Below are positions 3,700-48,208 of a stretch of 64,000 nucleotides of DNA, in pieces. Under the pieces are notes generated by a model that was not told the origin of the DNA, searched no databases, and saw only the letters and a list, made by a program, of their open reading frames with translations. The stretch covers positions 1,856,168-1,920,167 of the forward strand of contig LT827128.1 of NCBI GenBank assembly GCA_900170005.1, read 5' to 3'. This DNA is from Gordonibacter massiliensis (ex Traore et al. 2017). Its GTDB lineage: Bacteria; Actinomycetota; Coriobacteriia; Coriobacteriales; Eggerthellaceae. Made by a program: the position numbers and the translations under genes. Each line of letters opens with the position of its first letter. Position 1 is the first letter of the stretch.

Positions 3700-3845
3700 G
3701 CTAGCATAATGTCAAGGCAAAAAACGCCCCCCCCCCGCCGCCTTTCCTCATCCCACCCTACACCACGTGAACTACACCACAGTAGTACCCCTACCACTAT
3801 CACTGCTACTAATTTCCTTTCGCGCATTCCGTCGGGCCCTGCCCC

Positions 3846-15499: not shown

Positions 15500-16522
15500 C
15501 TACTTCCCCGCTGCGCCGCCTAGTACGTCCTTCGCATGGTCGCCCAGAACGTCGCCGAAGCCTTCGCTGAAGCTCGAAGGCACCACGACGGTGCCGCCCG
15601 TCTCGCGGACGCTCTCGTACAGCAGGTGCATGGCGCGCAGGCGCAGGGCGGCGTCGTTTTTGGCATAGGTGTCGCCCATGCCGTCCATCATCTCGCAGAT
15701 GTCCTGCTCGGCCTCCATGAGGATGATGCGGGCCTTCTTGCGCTGTTCGGCCTGGGCTTCCAGCGACATGACATCCTGCAGCTCCTTCGGCAGCAGGATG
15801 TCGCGCACCTCCACCGACAGCACGGTGATACCCCAGGGCGCCACCTTCTCCTCCAGCGCGCGCTTGAGCTCGCGATCGAGCTGCTCGCGGCGGATGGCCA
15901 CCTCGGCGGCGCCGGCGCGGCCGATGGCGTCGCGCAGGGCGGTCTGCGCGGCCAGCTCCACGGCGCGCGTGAAGTCGTTCACCTCGGTGCAGGCGGCCTT
16001 CGCGTCCCACACGTGCCAGAACAGCACGGCGTTCACGTCGAGCGGAACGAGGTCGGCCGTGAGCGTTTCCTCGGCGCCGAACGTGGTCACGCGCACGCGG
16101 CCGTCCACGCGCATGGTGTTCTGCTCGATGACGGGAAGCGTCCAGAACAGGCCCGGCCCCGACACACGGTTGAACTTGCCCAGGCGCAGCACGACCACCT
16201 TCTCCCACTGCTGCGCGATGTGCACTGACATGGTGGCCAGCACCGCTAGAACGAGCGCGCAGACGATGCCCGTCACGCCGATGCCCCCGGCCAGCACGCC
16301 CGCAACGGCGAGCACCGCGCAGAACGACACGACAAGCACGACCGCCGAGAACAGCAGCACGCCGGCGTTCGAGGCGCGTTCGCCCATGATCTCCGTGTTC
16401 GCATCGGGCACCACCTGGAAGGTCTTGCGCCTGCGCGCGGGCACCGCCGTCTCGGCGCGGCCGAACGCCGCCGCGTTCGGCGAACCATCCTGCGCGTCGA
16501 ATCTTCTACCCACGGAAATCAC
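15500..16522 (-). CDS. SPFH/slipin membrane protein, module 1
   Basis: 340 residues from GTG 16522, whose bases overlap the GntR stop (GTGA), so the two genes are translationally coupled. Two adjacent N-terminal membrane helices (about residues 60-110) are followed by the SPFH domain, beginning EKVVVLRLGKFNRVSGPGLF. A helical coiled region ends with EVRDILLPKELQDVMSLEAQAEQRKKAR. Slipins assemble as membrane-bound oligomers and organise or protect membrane proteins; no partner is known for this one. It is the third gene of membrane anchor, GntR, SPFH. Paralogues lie at 26403, 38611 and 45004. Confidence 0.88.
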   Translation of the reverse strand: MISVGRRFDAQDGSPNAAAFGRAETAVPARRRKTFQVVPDANTEIMGERASNAGVLLFSAVVLVVSFCAVLAVAGVLAGGIGVTGIVCALVLAVLATMSVHIAQQWEKVVVLRLGKFNRVSGPGLFWTLPVIEQNTMRVDGRVRVTTFGAEETLTADLVPLDVNAVLFWHVWDAKAACTEVNDFTRAVELAAQTALRDAIGRAGAAEVAIRREQLDRELKRALEEKVAPWGITVLSVEVRDILLPKELQDVMSLEAQAEQRKKARIILMEAEQDICEMMDGMGDTYAKNDAALRLRAMHLLYESVRETGGTVVVPSSFSEGFGDVLGDHAKDVLGGAAGK

Positions 16523-17001
16523 GCTCCCGTCTGCTTCGCGCGGCCCTTCGGGCTCACGTCTATCTCCACTATGCGGCCCCTGCCGCCCGCTTCGCTGTCG
16601 GCTGCCGAACCTTCGCCGGCGTCGCGCTTCAGCTGCTTGATCTTGCGCGTCATGCAGCTCTGGATATCGTCGAGCGTGAGGCCCAGGTCGCGGCACGACG
16701 CCACGCAATCGTTTAGGATGCCGTCGATCTCCTGCGCGTGCTCCTCGCCCACGTCGGCGTCAAGATCGCGCACGAACACGCCACGGCCGCGCGTCGACTC
16801 CAAGTATCCGTCCGTCACCAGGCTCAGGTACGCTTTGTTCACCGTGTTGTAATTGATGGATATCTCCGAAGCCAAACCGCGCACCGTGGGCAGCTGGTCG
16901 CCCGGCTTGAAGTAGCCGGAGTTTATCAGGTAGATCAGCCGTTGCCGCAGCTGCACCCAAAGGGGCACGTCGGTCGTGGTATCCACTTCGAACGGGAACA
17001 T
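16519..17001 (-). CDS. GntR-family (YtrA subfamily) regulator, module 1
   Basis: 160 residues. Residues 1-75 form the winged helix-turn-helix: VPLWVQLRQRLIYLINSGYF, then QLPTVRGLASEISINYNTVNKAY, ending GVFVRD. The C-terminal part is short, as in YtrA-type regulators, which usually repress small operons that encode membrane proteins. It lacks the large ligand domain of FadR or HutC types. It sits 17 bp after the membrane gene and overlaps the SPFH start by 4 bp. The putative operator is at 18241-18276. The recognition-helix core YNTV is shared with the three other GntR proteins in the window. Confidence 0.9.
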   Translation of the reverse strand: MFPFEVDTTTDVPLWVQLRQRLIYLINSGYFKPGDQLPTVRGLASEISINYNTVNKAYLSLVTDGYLESTRGRGVFVRDLDADVGEEHAQEIDGILNDCVASCRDLGLTLDDIQSCMTRKIKQLKRDAGEGSAADSEAGGRGRIVEIDVSPKGRAKQTGA

Positions 17002-17018
17002 GAGCCTCAAACCCTTCT

Positions 17019-17968
17019 CTACCCTACCGTCATCGCGAGCAGCGGATGCATGCCCGCCTCCACCACGCAGAACCGCATGGCGAACCCGCCTACCAAAATG
17101 CACGCCGCCGCCACGATAGCGAGCGGCGGACAGGCACTGCGCGAGCGCGCCAGAACCGCATCGAGCACGAGCGGAACGGCAAGCCCCACCAGCACGAACC
17201 CACCCCAGAACAGCCACGCCGCCTCGCCGGCCACCAGCGCCTCGGCCGAGACCGCCAGCGCCTCGGCCGTGCGCCCCGCCACGAAGTCGCCGCCGGCGCC
17301 GGCGAGCGCCAGGCCCACGAACACGGCCGCGACCACCGCCTCCAGCACGATGGCGACCGCGTCGACCGCCGCCAAGCGGCCAAGCGCCGTGGCGAACGGG
17401 CGCGCCGCGCCCGTGAACTGCGCCACGACAAGCACGAGCGCCGCGCCGCACGAAAGCGACGACAGCACGAACAGCACCGGCAGCCAGGGCGAGGCCCACA
17501 GGGGCACCGCGCTCAAGCTCTGCAGGAGCAATCCCGTGTACGCCATGACCACGAGAGCCGCCACCGCAAGCGCCACCTCGAGCACGCGCACCGCCCGCAA
17601 GCTCGCACGGCGCGCGAATCCGTCCCACGCAAGCGCTGCGAGCGCGGCGAGCACCGCGCATGCGGCGAGCGACCAAGCGCCCACCGCCACGAACGACAGC
17701 GTGGGATTCGCGAGCAACAGCAGGACCCGATCGGCGCGCCCCACGTCGGCCAGCAGGAAGACCATGCCCAGTGCAAGCGTCACCAAAGCCGCCGCGTAGC
17801 CGGGAGCCAGCAGCTTGCGGTACGGCTCGGGAACGCGCAGCACCACGCGCGGCGAAGCGGCTCGGTGCGAAACGCGCCCCCGCGCCCCGTCGATCATGAC
17901 TGCCACGCGCTCGCGCGGGGCCAGCAGGCCCAGCACCGCGAGCACCAGGCACGCCCCCGCCCCCGCAC
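17019..17968 (-). CDS. DmsC/NrfD-like membrane protein, module 1 (5' end lost to adapter sequence)
   Basis: About 316 codons remain, with 8-9 hydrophobic helices. The paralogues at 27386, 40038 and 47225 begin YLFLGGAGAGA or a close variant. Here only GAGAGACLVLAVLGL is left, and the sequence before it (17969-18038) matches an Illumina adapter. The natural start and first helix, about 20 codons, are therefore missing from the assembly; the gene itself is probably intact in the organism. The downstream motif LSSLSCGAALVLV is shared with the paralogues. The family anchors quinol-linked reductases. It lies 17 bp upstream of GntR 1. Confidence 0.8.
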
Positions 17969-18038
17969 CGGTCTCTTATACCCATCTGACGCAGCCGACG
18001 ATACACCTCGTGTAGCACTCGGTGGTCGCCGTATCACG
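17969..18038. other. Illumina Nextera i5 adapter contamination
   Basis: 17969-18001 matches the Nextera mosaic-end and read-primer complement at 30 of 33 bases (GTCTCTTATA, then GACGC, GCCGACGA). 18002-18009 is an 8-base gap where the i5 index belongs. 18010-18038 matches the P5 complement at 25 of 29 bases, including GGTGGTCGCCGTATCA. The order and spacing are those of a library adapter. The counts are by eye against the remembered adapter sequence. What follows, to about 18100, may also be read-through noise. Confidence 0.93.
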
Positions 18039-18753
18039 AGCACAAAAACCCGAGTATACATCTACATCGACCACAGTCCACGACCATATGCGACAGCGAG
18101 ACGAACCACCGATACGATCATCGGACCGAGCATCGAGCCACCCCTTCCCCTTCCGACCGGCGCTTGCGCATGACAGGCGGACCCTGCGCACACCTGTCAC
18201 GCGCCCCGCTCCGCGAGCCGCCCGCCCTGCGTCACATGCAAATTATCATAAGACAATCACGGGGACATTGTATGACATCCGCCAGGGAAACGCACGCGTT
18301 CGTTCGCGGGCAGGCCCTAAAACATGCGACACCTTGATTCGCTAGGGATAGAAGGCGGTCGTCGTCACGCTTGTCTGAGTCATCTTTTCGGCAGCGACTG
18401 CATTTAGCCGCCCCTCATCATGCAAAATGCGTCGATCGGCGCTGTTCGCCATGAGCGATTCACGAGTGCTTATGCTTTCCCCAGCATGGAGTGGTTCTTT
18501 GGCCCTTCGGCTTACGAATACGTTCTTCCATCCACGCTAAAGTGAGATTCCGTCAATAATGTAACGAAATTTCAGGAAATTCCGTTAAGAGAACGGCGAA
18601 ATTTCCATTTCAGGCAAGGACGGCAGACGCATTGCGTCTCATGCGAAGACCTTGCGGCGGGCACGTTGCGGGACGGTGGCGGTTTGGGCGTTGCCGGAGC
18701 GCGCACGCTACACTGGCCGTGAAACCGACGAACCCATGAGGGAAGGAGGACGC
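18039..18753. other. Gene-free region upstream of module 1
   Basis: After the adapter come about 700 bp with no supported gene. The part up to about 18100 may be unreliable sequence. The putative module 1 operator is at 18241-18276. The rest, up to the ribosome site of the gene at 18754, shows nothing I can name. Confidence 0.5.
18241..18276. promoter_or_regulatory. Putative GntR operator of module 1
   Basis: 18241-18258 (AATTATCATAAGACAATC) matches one arm of the cluster A operator with a single mismatch. A degenerate second half-site, TATGACATC, lies at 18271-18279. It is upstream of the NrfD-GntR-SPFH module and suggests autoregulation plus shared control of cluster A. Confidence 0.55.
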
Positions 18754-38610: not shown

Positions 38611-39597
38611 TCACTCCCCTGCGCCCTTCGCCGCTTTCTCGGCGTCGCCTTCCACGAAACCCTCGGAAAACGCGCTGGGGATGACCAACGTGCCGCCGGA
38701 CTGCTCCACGCTCTCGTAGGCCAGGTGCATGGTGCGCAGGCGCAGGGCGTCCTGGTCGCCGTCGTACACCTCGGAGGCGTCCTTGAGCATTTCGGAGATG
38801 TCCTTCTCGGCCTCGGCCAGCACCATGCGGGCGTTGCGCTTGCGCTCGGCCACGGCCTCCATGGCCATGGCCTCCTGCAGCTCCTTCGGCACCACGATGT
38901 CGCGGATCTCCACGTCGATGATGGTGATGCCCCATGGGTTCAGCTTTTCCTCGATGGCTTCCTTCAGCTCCTCGTCGAGCTGGTCGCGACGCGTGGCCAC
39001 CTCGGCCACGGTGGCGCGCCCGATGGCCTTGCGCATGGCCGTTTGCGCGATCCAGGCCACGGCCGACGAGTAGTCCTCCACCTCCACGGTGGCGTTCTTG
39101 GCGCTCCACACCATCCAGAACAAGACGGCGTCGACATTGATGGGCACGAGGTCGCTCGTGAGCGTTTCCTCGGCACCGAAGTACGTGGTGGCCACGCGCT
39201 GGTCGATGCGCAGCGTGTAAAACTCGATGATGGGCCAGGTGAACACGATGCCGGGACCGGCCACGCGGTTGAACTTGCCGAAGCGCAGCACCACGGCCTT
39301 CTCCCATTCAAGCACGACGTGCACCGACGACGCGGCCAGCCAGCCCGCGACGGCGGCCACCGCCAACGCAACCAGGCCGATGCCTCCGAGCGCCGCCTGG
39401 AACAAGGCCAGCACGATGCCGAACGCCGCCACGAACACGACCACGGCGAACACCACGGCCCCGTTGCGGGAGGCGCGGCGCCGGCCCGTCTCCATGCGCA
39501 CGCCCTCCGGCACAGGCCGTGCGTTGCCGAACGCGGACGCGGTCGCACCCCCCGCGCCCGCCGCGGTCGAACCCGCGTTCTTCTTGTCGCGCTTCAT
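38611..39597 (-). CDS. SPFH/slipin membrane protein, module 3
   Basis: 328 residues. Hydrophobic hairpin at about 45-95, then EKAVVLRFGKFNRVAGPGIVF opens the SPFH domain, which ends IRDIVVPKELQEAMAMEAVAERKRNAR. A C-terminal PSAFSEGF segment parallels the other modules. It follows GntR 3 by 27 bp. Slipin-type proteins form membrane rings; which respiratory protein it could organise is not shown, but its operon partner is a DmsC/NrfD-like protein. Confidence 0.88.
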   Translation of the reverse strand: MKRDKKNAGSTAAGAGGATASAFGNARPVPEGVRMETGRRRASRNGAVVFAVVVFVAAFGIVLALFQAALGGIGLVALAVAAVAGWLAASSVHVVLEWEKAVVLRFGKFNRVAGPGIVFTWPIIEFYTLRIDQRVATTYFGAEETLTSDLVPINVDAVLFWMVWSAKNATVEVEDYSSAVAWIAQTAMRKAIGRATVAEVATRRDQLDEELKEAIEEKLNPWGITIIDVEIRDIVVPKELQEAMAMEAVAERKRNARMVLAEAEKDISEMLKDASEVYDGDQDALRLRTMHLAYESVEQSGGTLVIPSAFSEGFVEGDAEKAAKGAGE

Positions 39598-39624
39598 CGT
39601 AGCTCCTCCGATCTCGAAACGAGG

Positions 39625-40023
39625 CTAGTTGCCCGCGTCTCGCTTCTCCTTCGCGGCCTTGATGCTGGCAGCGAACTGCTCCTCCACGTCCTCGAGGGAC
39701 ATGCCCAGCTCGAAGCAGCGTTTGAGGTACTCCTGCGTCACGATCTCGGCCGTGGACGATATGCTCACGCCCGGCTTGTCGCTCACGTCGAGCACGAACG
39801 CGCCCTGGCGGCGCTTCGACTGGATGTAGCCGTCCTGCTCGAGGCTCATGTACACCTTGCTCACGGTGTTGTAGTTCACCTCGACCTCGGCGGCCAGGCC
39901 GCGCACCGTGGGCAGCTGGTCGTCCGGCTTGTAGTACCCCGAGGTGATAAGGTATATGAACCGGTTCTTCAGCTGAAGCCAGATGGGGATGCTGCTCTTC
40001 TCGTTGATCTCGAACAGGGCCAC
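39625..40023 (-). CDS. GntR-family (YtrA subfamily) regulator, module 3
   Basis: 132 residues from GTG 40023, preceded by AGGGGG. Winged helix: SSIPIWLQLKNRFIYLITSG, DQLPTVRGLAAEVEVNYNTVSKVY, ending RRQGAFVLD. Short C-terminus without a known ligand domain. It lies 14 bp after the membrane gene and before SPFH 3. The palindrome at 41114-41136 upstream of the module is its likely operator, and the cluster C promoter is a second likely target. Confidence 0.9.
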   Translation of the reverse strand: MALFEINEKSSIPIWLQLKNRFIYLITSGYYKPDDQLPTVRGLAAEVEVNYNTVSKVYMSLEQDGYIQSKRRQGAFVLDVSDKPGVSISSTAEIVTQEYLKRCFELGMSLEDVEEQFAASIKAAKEKRDAGN

Positions 40024-40037
40024 GGATCCGCTTCCCC

Positions 40038-40991
40038 CTACATCGCCCGTTGCGTTTGCGCAGCGGGCTCTTCCAGCTCCAAGGCGCGATGCGCGCCGGC
40101 ACCCACGACGCTGCCGCGCAGGCACAGGCCGCCCACCAGCACGAGCACGGCCGCCACGGCCAGCGCCGCACGCAGAACCGGCTTCGTGCGCCCGCGCACG
40201 GCGTTGACGGCCTCCACGACGAACGGCACGATAAGGCCGCACAGAACGAAGCCGACCCACCATGCCAACGCCTCGCTGCCACCCATGAGCTGCGCTGCCG
40301 ACGCGGAGGCGGCAGGGTTGCCGCCTCCTAGGGAAATCTCCGCGAACGCCGCTGACACCACCGCTTCCAGCGCGATCACCGCCGCATCGACGCAGGCAAG
40401 CGCATGCACCGCGCGGGTGAGATCGGCGTCGAGCTCGGAGAAGAACGACGCCGCCAGCGCCACGGCGATGCCGCACGACAGCGACGACAGCACGAACATC
40501 ACCGGCAGCAACGGGGACTTCCACAACGCAACGGCGTTCAGCCCCTGCAGCAGCAGGCCGGTGTACAGCGCCACGACCGTGCCCACCGCCGCAGCCACCG
40601 CCTCCACGGCCACCACGACCGAGCGCGGCACGGACGGCAGGTAGACGAACCGCACCAGGGCGAGAAACGCCCCGCACAGCACCAGCACCGCCAGCGCGTA
40701 GGAGCCCACGGTCAAATACGTGAGCGACGGGTTCAGGAACAACGCGAGCACTCGGTCGATGCGACCCAAGTCGATGATCAGGCACAGCGTGCCCAGTACG
40801 AGCGCGGCGAAACCCGCGAGCAACGTGAAGGACGCCACCCGCTCGACAGGCGGGGCCTCGTCGACGGACACGCGCGCGTCGGTTCCGAAAGGAGCGCGCA
40901 CCGCCACGAGGTCGAGCATGCACCCGACCACGATCGCACCCGCCCCGGCACCGCCGAGAAACAGATAGCCCACTGTTAACGCGCCGAACAT
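40038..40991 (-). CDS. DmsC/NrfD-like membrane protein, module 3
   Basis: 317 residues from ATG 40991, with GGGAGGTGCT just before it. Begins MFGALTVGYLFLGGAGAGA, the intact form of the signature that is cut in module 1. Eight or nine helices; LSSLSCGIAVALAASFF and GGLCLRGSVVGAG are shared with the paralogues. It is the first gene of the membrane protein, GntR, SPFH operon. It probably anchors or senses the quinol pool; the catalytic partner is inferred to be cluster C. Confidence 0.88.
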   Translation of the reverse strand: MFGALTVGYLFLGGAGAGAIVVGCMLDLVAVRAPFGTDARVSVDEAPPVERVASFTLLAGFAALVLGTLCLIIDLGRIDRVLALFLNPSLTYLTVGSYALAVLVLCGAFLALVRFVYLPSVPRSVVVAVEAVAAAVGTVVALYTGLLLQGLNAVALWKSPLLPVMFVLSSLSCGIAVALAASFFSELDADLTRAVHALACVDAAVIALEAVVSAAFAEISLGGGNPAASASAAQLMGGSEALAWWVGFVLCGLIVPFVVEAVNAVRGRTKPVLRAALAVAAVLVLVGGLCLRGSVVGAGAHRALELEEPAAQTQRAM

Positions 40992-41490
40992 AGCACCTCC
41001 CAATGCCGCAAGGTTTTCCGCAGCATACGGCCATTCGTTAGAACGCGATTCGTCGCGCGGCGCAAAGCGCGCCGAAACGGCGCCCCGCCAGTATCCCACA
41101 AAACGGCCGTTCTGCATATGACACCCTGTCATATGCCGGGTGGGGACGCAGCCGGATCACGTCCCGTCATCCTCGCCCGCACACCGACTCGGCGGTCCAC
41201 GCTTTCCATATCCCCTTTTCGAAGGCCCTTCCGAAAACAACCTGCCTCCATTTATGGAGTTTCGCGCACAAGCGGGGCGTTTCGCGAGGTTCTCGGCGCA
41301 GCACGGCCCTCGAACCCCCATACTGGACAGTCGCTTCACACGAAACTCTTTCTCGTTTCTTTTCGCGCTTAGGCCAACGGATTGCAGAAAGCTGCTCGAG
41401 TCAAGCGCAATGCACGCCGCTGGAGCGGGTGCGAAAGCGGAAAACGGGCCGCACGGGCGGCCGTCCGCCGAAGAGAAACGGAATACCCTT
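40992..41490. other. Divergent promoter region of module 3 and the helicase gene
   Basis: 500 bp without a supported gene. It holds the palindrome at 41114-41136. The long leader of the helicase gene (about 350 bp) shows no structure that I can name. Confidence 0.5.
41114..41136. promoter_or_regulatory. Palindromic operator of module 3
   Basis: Perfect arms GCATATGACA and TGTCATATGC with spacer CCC. The half-site ATATGACA is the same as in the cluster A operator, though the spacing is different. It lies about 125 bp upstream of the module's first gene. Confidence 0.65.
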
Positions 41491-45003: not shown

Positions 45004-45927
45004 TCACTCGCCCAGATCCAGCTTGCCCACGTTGAAGCCGTCGGCTAGAGAGCTCGGGGCCAGCAGCACGCCCTTCGAGTCCTTGGCGCCCTCGTAGGCC
45101 AGGTTCATGGCGCGCAGCTTCATGGCGCGAGGGTTGCGGTCGTACACCTCGGCCGCTTCCACGAACATCTCGGAGATGTCCTTCTCCACCTCGGCCAGGA
45201 TGATGCGGGCGTTGCGCTCGCGCTCGGCCTGGGCTTCCTTCGACAGCGCGTCCTGCAGCTCGCGCGGGATCATGATGTCGCGGATCTCCACCGAGATAAC
45301 CGTCACGCCCCACTGCTCGCACTTCTTGCCCAGCATCTCCTCCAAATCGCGGTCGATCTGCTTGCGACGCGTGGAGATGTCGGCCAGGTTCAGCTGGCCT
45401 ATCACGTCGCGCATGGCCGTCTGCGCCGAACGGAGCACGGCCTTGGGGTAGTTCTCCACCTCCAGGCATGCCTTCTCGGCGTCCCACACCATCCAGAACA
45501 GGATGGCGTCCACATCCACCGGCACGAGGTCGGCCGTGAGCGCGGCCTCGGCGGAAAACGAGGCGGTGGTGATGCGCTGGTCAACGTGGATAGCCGCGTA
45601 CTCGACGAACGGAATGCAGCAGTACAGCCCCGGCCCGGCGATGCGGTTGAACTTGCCGAGGCGTAGGATGGCCACGCGCTCCCAATGCGGCGCGATGCGC
45701 ACCGACGTGGCGGCCACGAAGCCTACCACGATGGAAGCGGCGACGGTCAACGGCGACGCGAGCCCAATCGTCAACAGGAACGGAACGAGGAACCCCACCG
45801 CGAACACGGCGAGGAAGAACAGGTACACCCCTCCGCGGGAAGCGTCGTTGGCCTCGAGTTCGGTCTCGGCGATCTTCCGCTCGCCCTGCGCGTCGTTTCC
45901 GGCACCATTACGCTTGAACAATCCCAT
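45004..45927 (-). CDS. SPFH/slipin membrane protein, cluster D
   Basis: 307 residues. Hydrophobic hairpin at about 32-80, then ERVAILRLGKFNRIAGPGLYC and the SPFH domain, ending IRDIMIPRELQDALSKEAQAERERNAR. The C-terminal signature is a variant, PSSLADGF. It is the last gene of the run of catalytic subunit, ferredoxin, NrfD, TorD, GntR, SPFH, and follows GntR 4 by 25 bp. This arrangement is the best evidence that the SPFH proteins here work with the molybdoenzymes. Confidence 0.88.
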   Translation of the reverse strand: MGLFKRNGAGNDAQGERKIAETELEANDASRGGVYLFFLAVFAVGFLVPFLLTIGLASPLTVAASIVVGFVAATSVRIAPHWERVAILRLGKFNRIAGPGLYCCIPFVEYAAIHVDQRITTASFSAEAALTADLVPVDVDAILFWMVWDAEKACLEVENYPKAVLRSAQTAMRDVIGQLNLADISTRRKQIDRDLEEMLGKKCEQWGVTVISVEIRDIMIPRELQDALSKEAQAERERNARIILAEVEKDISEMFVEAAEVYDRNPRAMKLRAMNLAYEGAKDSKGVLLAPSSLADGFNVGKLDLGE

Positions 45928-45952
45928 CGTCGCCCCTCCGATCGATCGTCGT

Positions 45953-46387
45953 TCACTCCGCTTCGCCTGCGGCGGCCAGTCGGCCCCTCACCAGATCGGC
46001 GATATCCTGGCGAGGCACGCCCAACTCCCGGCATTGACGGATGAACTCGTCCGCCAGAAACTCGACCTCGGACTTCGCCGCCTCGGCCTCGGCGGGGGCC
46101 CGCTCGGCCACGAACGTCCCCTTGCCGCGCTTCGACACGATGTAGCCGTCGCGCTCGATGTCTTGGTACACCTTGCTCACCGTGTTGTAGTTCACGCCCA
46201 GATCAACGGCCAGCTCGCGCACGGTGGGCAGCTTGTCGCCAACTTGGAACTTCCCAGACGCTATCAGGTATATCAAACGATTGCGCAACTGAAGCCACAG
46301 CGGGATTCCGCTGTCGCTGTCGATGGTGATCTGCACGGTTTGATTGGCGGCGCTCACTCTGAGATAGTCCCCACCTTCGTTCGCCAC
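45953..46387 (-). CDS. GntR-family (YtrA subfamily) regulator, cluster D
   Basis: 144 residues. Winged helix: SGIPLWLQLRNRLIYLIASG, DKLPTVRELAVDLGVNYNTVSKVY, ending RGKGTFVAE; short C-terminal helices follow. It lies 177 bp after torD D, with a half-site (GTCACATGATA) just upstream of its start, so it may also have its own promoter. The likely targets are that site and the cluster D promoter near 51513. Confidence 0.9.
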   Translation of the reverse strand: MANEGGDYLRVSAANQTVQITIDSDSGIPLWLQLRNRLIYLIASGKFQVGDKLPTVRELAVDLGVNYNTVSKVYQDIERDGYIVSKRGKGTFVAERAPAEAEAAKSEVEFLADEFIRQCRELGVPRQDIADLVRGRLAAAGEAE

Positions 46388-46392
46388 ATTGT

Positions 46393-46405
46393 TTCGTCAC
46401 ATGAT
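46393..46405. promoter_or_regulatory. Half-site upstream of GntR 4
   Basis: CGTCACATGATAG differs by one base from the TGTCATATGATA arm of the cluster A operator. Single half-site only. Confidence 0.4.
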
Positions 46406-46564
46406 AGCATTCCTCGTCGCGCTTGCCACGCACGTCCGCCATCAGCATCGAGGCTCCGCGCGGCCGACCTGGAGGGAGGGTTGGCCGACCGGGCGGAGCC
46501 CGCAAACCGGACGCCCCGCCGAATCGGCGAACGCCGACCCTTGGGGCTCGCGAAGGTGCGATGG

Positions 46565-47209
46565 CTAGGCGAGGGCAAGCTCCTCCCGTTCGAATTCCAA
46601 GAACTGGCGCGTCGTTTCGGCGAGCCCGCGGTACAGACCCAGCTTCGCGCGTCTTTCAAGGTCGTCGCAAAGCTGCGGCACCCACGTCAGCAGGTGGTCG
46701 CGCGCAAACGCCCGCTGCGCCTCATGCGCCGTATCGGCGGCCGCATCGTCGCCTGCCGACGCGGCGTCCAGCTCCTTGCGGCAGAGCCGGGCCATGAACT
46801 CGAACTCGATGGCCACGTGGTCTTCGGGAACGTTCAAGTCCCCCGCGCGCTCGAACCCCGAGCTCCGGTAGTCTGCGAGCACCTCGTCGCGCGCCTTCTG
46901 CATGAGCAGGCGCTCGGCGCTCGTGTACACCGATTCGTAGGGGAACACCGGGTCGGCGGACATGTTCAGCAGCAGCGCCGCGAACTCGGCCGCCGCCTCC
47001 GTTCGCACGGAGGCGAGGTCGGCGGACGGCAGCTCGGCCACGAACCGACCCAACTCCCCTTCGAGCTGCGGAGGCCGCTCGGCCAAACGCGCCAAAAACT
47101 CCTCCGTCACCTCTTCAAGGAACATGTGGGACAGAAACGAGTACGTGACCTCCCTCGCCTCGCAACTCGCGCGATCGACATGCGCTTCCATATCCGCCTC
47201 CCTCGACAT
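46565..47209 (-). CDS. TorD-family chaperone, cluster D
   Basis: 214 residues, without the insertion found in clusters B and C. Visible features: EVTYSFLSHMFLEEVTEEFL at the N-terminus, FAALLLNMSADPVFPYESVY, and HVAIEFEFMARLCRKEL. It binds the Tat signal of its enzyme and assists cofactor insertion (family knowledge). It lies 15 bp after NrfD D in the operon. Confidence 0.88.
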   Translation of the reverse strand: MSREADMEAHVDRASCEAREVTYSFLSHMFLEEVTEEFLARLAERPPQLEGELGRFVAELPSADLASVRTEAAAEFAALLLNMSADPVFPYESVYTSAERLLMQKARDEVLADYRSSGFERAGDLNVPEDHVAIEFEFMARLCRKELDAASAGDDAAADTAHEAQRAFARDHLLTWVPQLCDDLERRAKLGLYRGLAETTRQFLEFEREELALA

Positions 47210-47224
47210 CTGCCTACTCGTCTT

Positions 47225-48208
47225 CTACGATATCAGCATAACCATGTTCTGGGCCGCCTGCAGCGCCGCCGGACTGATGAGCGCAGCGTGCAAGCCGGCC
47301 GACAGCACCAGGAACCGCAGCGTGAACCCGCCGACGAGCGCGCAGGTCGCGCCTCCCACCGGCACGGCGGGCGCGATCTTGCCGCCGCCCTTTCGCCTCG
47401 AAACCACAACCTGAACCAAGGCCGCCACGAGCGGAACGCCCAGTCCCACGACAACCACGAGCAGCCAGAACTGCACGCTCAGCACGCCGTTGGTGAGCAA
47501 GCCCACCGACACCGCCTCGTTCGAGCCCGCACCCTGCATCGTCAGCACGAACGCCGCCAGCACGATGGCCTCCAGAACCACCAGGCACACCACCGCCCAT
47601 TCGAGTGCCGTGCGCACGCCGTGCACGCCTTCGTCCTTCTCCAGCACGGTGGCGAAGATGGCCACCGCCGCCACGCCTGTGTCAAGCGCCGACACGGTGA
47701 ACAGGACCGGCAGCAGCCACGAACCCCACAGGGGGATGGCCGGCGCCGCGCTCAACAACACGCCCGTGTACGCCGCCACGGCGAGTGCGCACGGAATGCC
47801 GATGATGGCGAGCGCCTTGTTGATGCCGTCGCGCGCCCGGCCGAGCGGCTTCACAACCGACCCCAGCCAGTCGGCTATCTTGTCGGTGGTGAACAGCGCG
47901 CTCAACGCAAACACGATGATCGTGGCGAACAGGAGCCATGCGCCCACCGCCATCCACGACGAACCGTTCACAAAGCTCTTGAACAGGATCATGGCCTGGA
48001 AGGGCTTCGCCACCTCGGAGACCAATGCCAGCAGGCCGATGGCCAGCGCGACCACCGCCGTCCACACGCCTCCCGTCACGGTTTTCTTGAACCGCCCCGG
48101 CTTAGCTAGGCGCAAGATGGACACCGTCAGAAACGCGCCCGCGCCCAAACCGCCGAGGAACAGGTATATCGCCGGCAGCCAACCCCACGTCGTCTGCAAC
48201 TCAACCAT
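47225..48208 (-). CDS. DmsC/NrfD-like quinol anchor, cluster D
   Basis: 327 residues, 8-9 hydrophobic helices. It begins LPAIYLFLGGLGAGAFL and ends with a GGFTLRFLVLSAGLHA segment, so it belongs to the same subtype as the orphan membrane proteins of modules 1-3 and differs from the large NrfD of clusters A-C. Here it sits between ferredoxin and torD, in the normal anchor position. That links the module-type membrane protein to a molybdoenzyme directly. Confidence 0.9.
   Translation of the reverse strand: MVELQTTWGWLPAIYLFLGGLGAGAFLTVSILRLAKPGRFKKTVTGGVWTAVVALAIGLLALVSEVAKPFQAMILFKSFVNGSSWMAVGAWLLFATIIVFALSALFTTDKIADWLGSVVKPLGRARDGINKALAIIGIPCALAVAAYTGVLLSAAPAIPLWGSWLLPVLFTVSALDTGVAAVAIFATVLEKDEGVHGVRTALEWAVVCLVVLEAIVLAAFVLTMQGAGSNEAVSVGLLTNGVLSVQFWLLVVVVGLGVPLVAALVQVVVSRRKGGGKIAPAVPVGGATCALVGGFTLRFLVLSAGLHAALISPAALQAAQNMVMLIS

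Follow-up and report, generated by a model that had tools for sequence, protein, structure and literature searches.

A stretch of 148 bases in a 64-kb window (64,000 nucleotides, the whole stretch of DNA analyzed here) from the one-contig assembly of Gordonibacter massiliensis interrupts a gene for an NrfD-type membrane subunit. We conclude, with a probability of about 97%, that this stretch (17966-18113) is an assembly artifact, an untrimmed Nextera read tail joined between contigs, and it is not a biological feature. The first-pass annotation, which was made from the letters alone, had proposed a Nextera i5 adapter at 17969-18038 with about 55 of 62 fixed bases matching, and this was confirmed. 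In an ungapped comparison, the plus strand matched this adapter's read-through oligo (Nextera i5) at 55/62 fixed bases at exactly these coordinates, together with an index-sized gap of 8 bases. The parts follow one another in the order the annotation had given: the mosaic-end complement, the i5 primer complement, the 8 bases (TACACCTC), and the P5 complement. The second-best ungapped place in the window matched 31 bases, and five shuffled windows gave 30-32. A gapped local comparison scored 87 against a maximum of 22 across 200 shuffles.

The component oligos point to the same place. The mosaic end has its sole match in the window here (at most 4 mismatches, both strands), as does the P5 complement (at most 7 mismatches), and the reversed-oligo controls gave 0 matches in both cases. 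We put other short oligo matches in the window down to chance. The 14-base i5 primer has four more at up to 2 mismatches, with three for its reversed control, and there are single matches to the i7 primer (56065), P7 (24296, 6 mismatches), and TruSeq (39602, 1 mismatch), with 0 matches for the reversed control of each. Beyond the P5 complement lie 75 bases (18039-18113) in which no second adapter scored above shuffles (i5, 17 vs. a maximum of 24; i7, 19 vs. a maximum of 22). Compared with the genome itself and 30 relatives, these bases matched, besides themselves, only stretches of at most 30 bases at E 0.039 or weaker. Such weak matches in the 31 genomes are what chance would give, and the A+C-rich stretch reads as off-template read noise.

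Comparison with related genomes, also proposed in the first-pass annotation, set the boundaries of the insert. Two genomes of the same genus (G001 and G002) align on both sides and lack it: homology ends at 17965 and restarts at 18114, with 23 bases between compared with 148 in the window. The foreign stretch thus ends at 18113, in keeping with the earlier estimate that the sequence is suspect to about 18100. The net length change relative to these genomes is +125 bases, a number not divisible by three. The compared stretch of G002 includes 801 N, none of them at the place of the insert. A third genome of the genus (G004) aligned up to 17964 and restarted only at 18240, with no alignment across the insert, and its frame is open through the region corresponding to the start. 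In a fourth, likewise of the genus (G003), with 10 candidates scored per genome, only short pieces of the gene region matched, none of them across the insert.

Sister scars and contig-end joins

The assembly (one contig, 3,948,172 bases) contains five adapter scars, four of the i5 type, including that in the window, and one of the i7 type (Table 1). The i7 primer-region pattern, at up to 3 mismatches, gave no match, and a weak i7 match at 3336285 was set aside, as it came without an index and without an A tail. At the i7 scar, two ispH/LytB pieces lie on either side and match PF02401 positions 1-128 and 145-266. A whole-genome search found a single LytB match, located at this scar and with four stops inside. 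Bacteria that rely on this pathway for their isoprenoids normally cannot do without IspH, and the i7 scar is therefore unlikely to be present in the living cell. The scar at 815481 falls within or next to a gene of the chloride-channel type, whose PF00654 match begins at profile position 95 right after the scar.

The scars also speak to how the join arose. In three of the five, the genomic flank is repeated after the scar (511233, 26/26 bases; 769521, 33/34 bases; 815481, an imperfect repeat of ∼70 bases), which indicates that two overlapping contig ends were joined without merging. The first-pass suggestion of a contig-end join is thereby borne out for the assembly, the window junction itself being without such a repeat. 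We also looked at where exact i5 copies lie in named genomes of the GTDB collection, where they occur in at least 119 stretches with at least 123 copies among the matches listed. Among these matches, 123/123 copies lie at most 210 bases from a contig edge and read outwards (median, 16 bases; 86 copies within 50), the plus-strand copies (71) being at contig ends and the minus-strand copies (52) at contig starts. Given this placement of the listed copies, such a tail inside a one-contig genome would point to a former contig end.

The available parts of the description of G. massiliensis Marseille-P2775 (LT827128) report MiSeq paired-end sequencing, SPAdes, Trimmomatic for low-quality reads, and GapCloser, with an assembly of 3.9 megabases in 1 contig and a G+C content of 65.1%; Nextera is not named in those parts (PMC6931061).

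The index bases bear on whether the scars share an origin. The copy at 480005 carries TACTCCTT exactly at the index place, and the window copy agrees with it at 6/8 bases. We take TACTCCTT to be index S507 and AAGAGGCA, found at the i7 scar, to be N711. For the window, the second-best index is what we take to be S521, at 5/8. It is likely, but not proven, that the five scars come from one library.

Origin of the join and its alternatives

In the explanation that we favor, a short library fragment would have been sequenced beyond its end, in what was presumably a read 2, so that the read passed from genomic DNA (to about 17968) into the i5-side Nextera adapter and P5. The read would then have run off its template into noise, and the untrimmed low-quality tail would have become the end of a contig. 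A later step, probably scaffolding or gap closing, would have left this tail in place and butted it to the contig that follows (from 18114). Such a join would have placed 148 false bases where the relatives have 23, splitting the NrfD-type gene.

Several observations weigh against this explanation. The window junction lacks a repeated flank (score 22 vs. a shuffle maximum of 30), and so does the scar at 480005 (14 vs. a shuffle maximum of 25); likewise, no direct repeat of at least 22 bases (seed 18, within 600 bases) occurs in the window. A contig join without overlap is possible at the window. The index place, moreover, varies among the i5 copies: that at 511233 agrees with TACTCCTT at 4/8 bases and is nearer to what we take to be S520 (6/8). 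Errors in base calling toward the ends of reads may account for these differences, although this is not proven. Finally, the low G+C content of the insert (0.53-0.55; window, 63.0%) is no sign on its own, since 18350-18574 is equally low.

The adapter could be an artifact in a strain whose gene is nevertheless really disrupted or absent, the artifact then marking a real gap or rearrangement. The bases under the join do rest on inference, the 23 bases being taken from two other species. However, the alignment of both flanks to G001 and G002 reaches the very edges of the junk and takes in the start codon and the stretch upstream of it, and the gene body has kept an open frame that matches NrfD over profile positions 45-309; we therefore consider a true break very unlikely.

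Another rival account is that the living strain truly carries an inserted element, whether of the Tn5 family, a solo transposon end, or a laboratory transposon with adapter-like ends. In its favor, transposases recognize the mosaic end, and the insertion point within the gene is a single sharp one. This account is nevertheless scarcely credible: the match extends through the primer, the index place, and P5; with up to 4 mismatches allowed, the window has no inverted mosaic-end partner; the only ispH match, with its four stops, is split by a sister scar; and the tail after P5 resembles read noise. We know of no natural element that carries the primer, the index place, and P5. A natural transposon end was ruled out on the extent of the match and the missing partner. 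No target-site repeat at the flanks of the insert stood above shuffles, although that comparison could not have picked out a repeat of only 9 bases.

The interrupted NrfD-type gene

The insert leaves the NrfD-type gene, which reads on the minus strand, in two parts. The frame of the gene body runs into a stop within the adapter, so an open reading frame caller defaults to the GTG at 17945, which is a false start. The natural ATG (18133-18131) survives, as does, by comparison with the relatives, a purine-rich stretch upstream of it. As assembled, this ATG opens 23 codons that are followed by a stop. The first-pass annotation had held that the adapter removes the start and the first helix. This stands in part: the start codon is displaced but not lost, and, in our reading against the DNA of the relatives, about half of the helix appears to have been replaced by the insert. 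Its warnings that a truncated gene or a new promoter annotated here would be false were justified, as the gene runs without insert in G001 and G002, the GTG is a false start, and one promoter-like pair lies inside the junk (Table 1).

A paralogue that the annotation had called intact is indeed a long ATG-started frame (40038-41132), with a PF03916 match from profile position 9 and 41% identity to the interrupted gene over 239 aligned positions. In NCBIfam, both paralogues match cytochrome c nitrite reductase NrfD at 75 and 72 bits, far under the cut-off of 348, so that any assignment to an exact subfamily is tentative.

A minus-strand module recurs in the window (15500-17945, 38611-41132, and 45004-48208) with three copies of the NrfD-type subunit and three copies of a Band_7/SPFH protein. 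In at least two of the modules, a GntR-type regulator lies within the frame between the NrfD-type and Band_7/SPFH genes. The window also contains a run of ten C at 3727-3736, the only one of its class there, whose length may be wrong given the quality of the assembly.

Table 1. Features of the adapter join in the window and of the adapter scars in the assembly (window coordinates for the first eight rows, contig coordinates for the others)
Feature	Position	Strand	Evidence
Whole foreign stretch, 148 bases	17966-18113	.	23 bases in two same-genus genomes (G001, G002)
Complement of Nextera mosaic end and i5-side primer	17969-18001	+	Within the 55/62 match; only mosaic-end match in window
Index place, TACACCTC	18002-18009	+	6/8 bases shared with TACTCCTT
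Complement of P5	18010-18038	+	4 mismatches in 29
Probable off-template read noise, A+C-rich	18039-18113	+	A28 C25 G13 T9; no adapter match above shuffles; besides itself, only matches of E 0.039 or weaker in 31 genomes
False promoter-like pair inside junk	18053-18080	-	Consensus scan: 1 found; shuffle mean 0.2, standard deviation 0.4
Truncated-looking NrfD-type membrane subunit gene, GTG at 17945 a false start	17019-17945	-	PF03916 profile 45-309 of 313; frame
Surviving natural ATG of NrfD-type gene, cut off from gene body	18131-18133	-	ATG and first codons same in G001, G002
i5 scar	480005		98% over 63 bases (similarity search)
i5 scar	511233		80% over 70 bases (similarity search)
i7 scar, A-rich tail, AAGAGGCA at index place	769521 (about 769451-769610)		
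Half i5 scar, mosaic end and primer only	815481 (about 815417-815571)	-	Repeated flank
i5 scar of the window	1874138		91% over 66 bases (similarity search)

Other genomes and consequences

We searched 60 genomes, that of G. massiliensis (G000) included, with the i5 oligo, and four matched at E of at most 0.001 (G000, G005, G007, and G037). Eight of the 60 are one-contig genomes of the family, and two of these eight match (G000 and G007). G007, which belongs to another genus, has five degraded Nextera i5 sites (L155-L159), and at one of them (L156) a single junction contains a reversed i5 tail along with an i7 tail, like two contig tails placed head to head. In contrast to G000, G007 has another index pair (i5 nearest to what we take to be S508, at 7/8 and 5/8; i7 GGACTCCT), and none of the three flank pairs tested showed a repeat above shuffles. 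A repeated flank seen by eye at L155 was rejected, with a score of 34 against a shuffle maximum of 39. Of the remaining two genomes, G005 shows the P5 complement with A-rich noise after it in the interior of two contigs (L160 and L161), and in G037 one contig begins with a degraded i5 copy (L162).

Contamination of this general kind is already published. Untrimmed Illumina adapter occurs at contig ends in microbial assemblies, forward at ends and as the reverse complement at beginnings, according to the portions of the report available to us (PMC11536531). The layout described in those portions is the same as in 123/123 exact i5 copies among the matches listed in named genomes. The present case differs from what they describe in that a degraded Nextera oligo lies in the interior of a single contig. 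The copies found here are therefore a little different from known contig-end contamination, and, being degraded and inside one contig, they would lie outside the reach of exact-word searches near contig ends.

Whether some short-read-only one-contig genomes hold many internal degraded adapter joins, beyond exact-word screens of contig ends, is in our judgment an evenly balanced question. If they do, internal adapter joins would cause false gene losses, essential genes included. In the present genome, any annotation at 17945-18113 of a promoter, of an alternative start, or of the NrfD subunit as truncated would be false, and ispH/LytB is falsely broken in the same assembly. Joins without a recognizable adapter may exist there too, and gene-loss or pathway calls from this genome need to be checked against its five scars.
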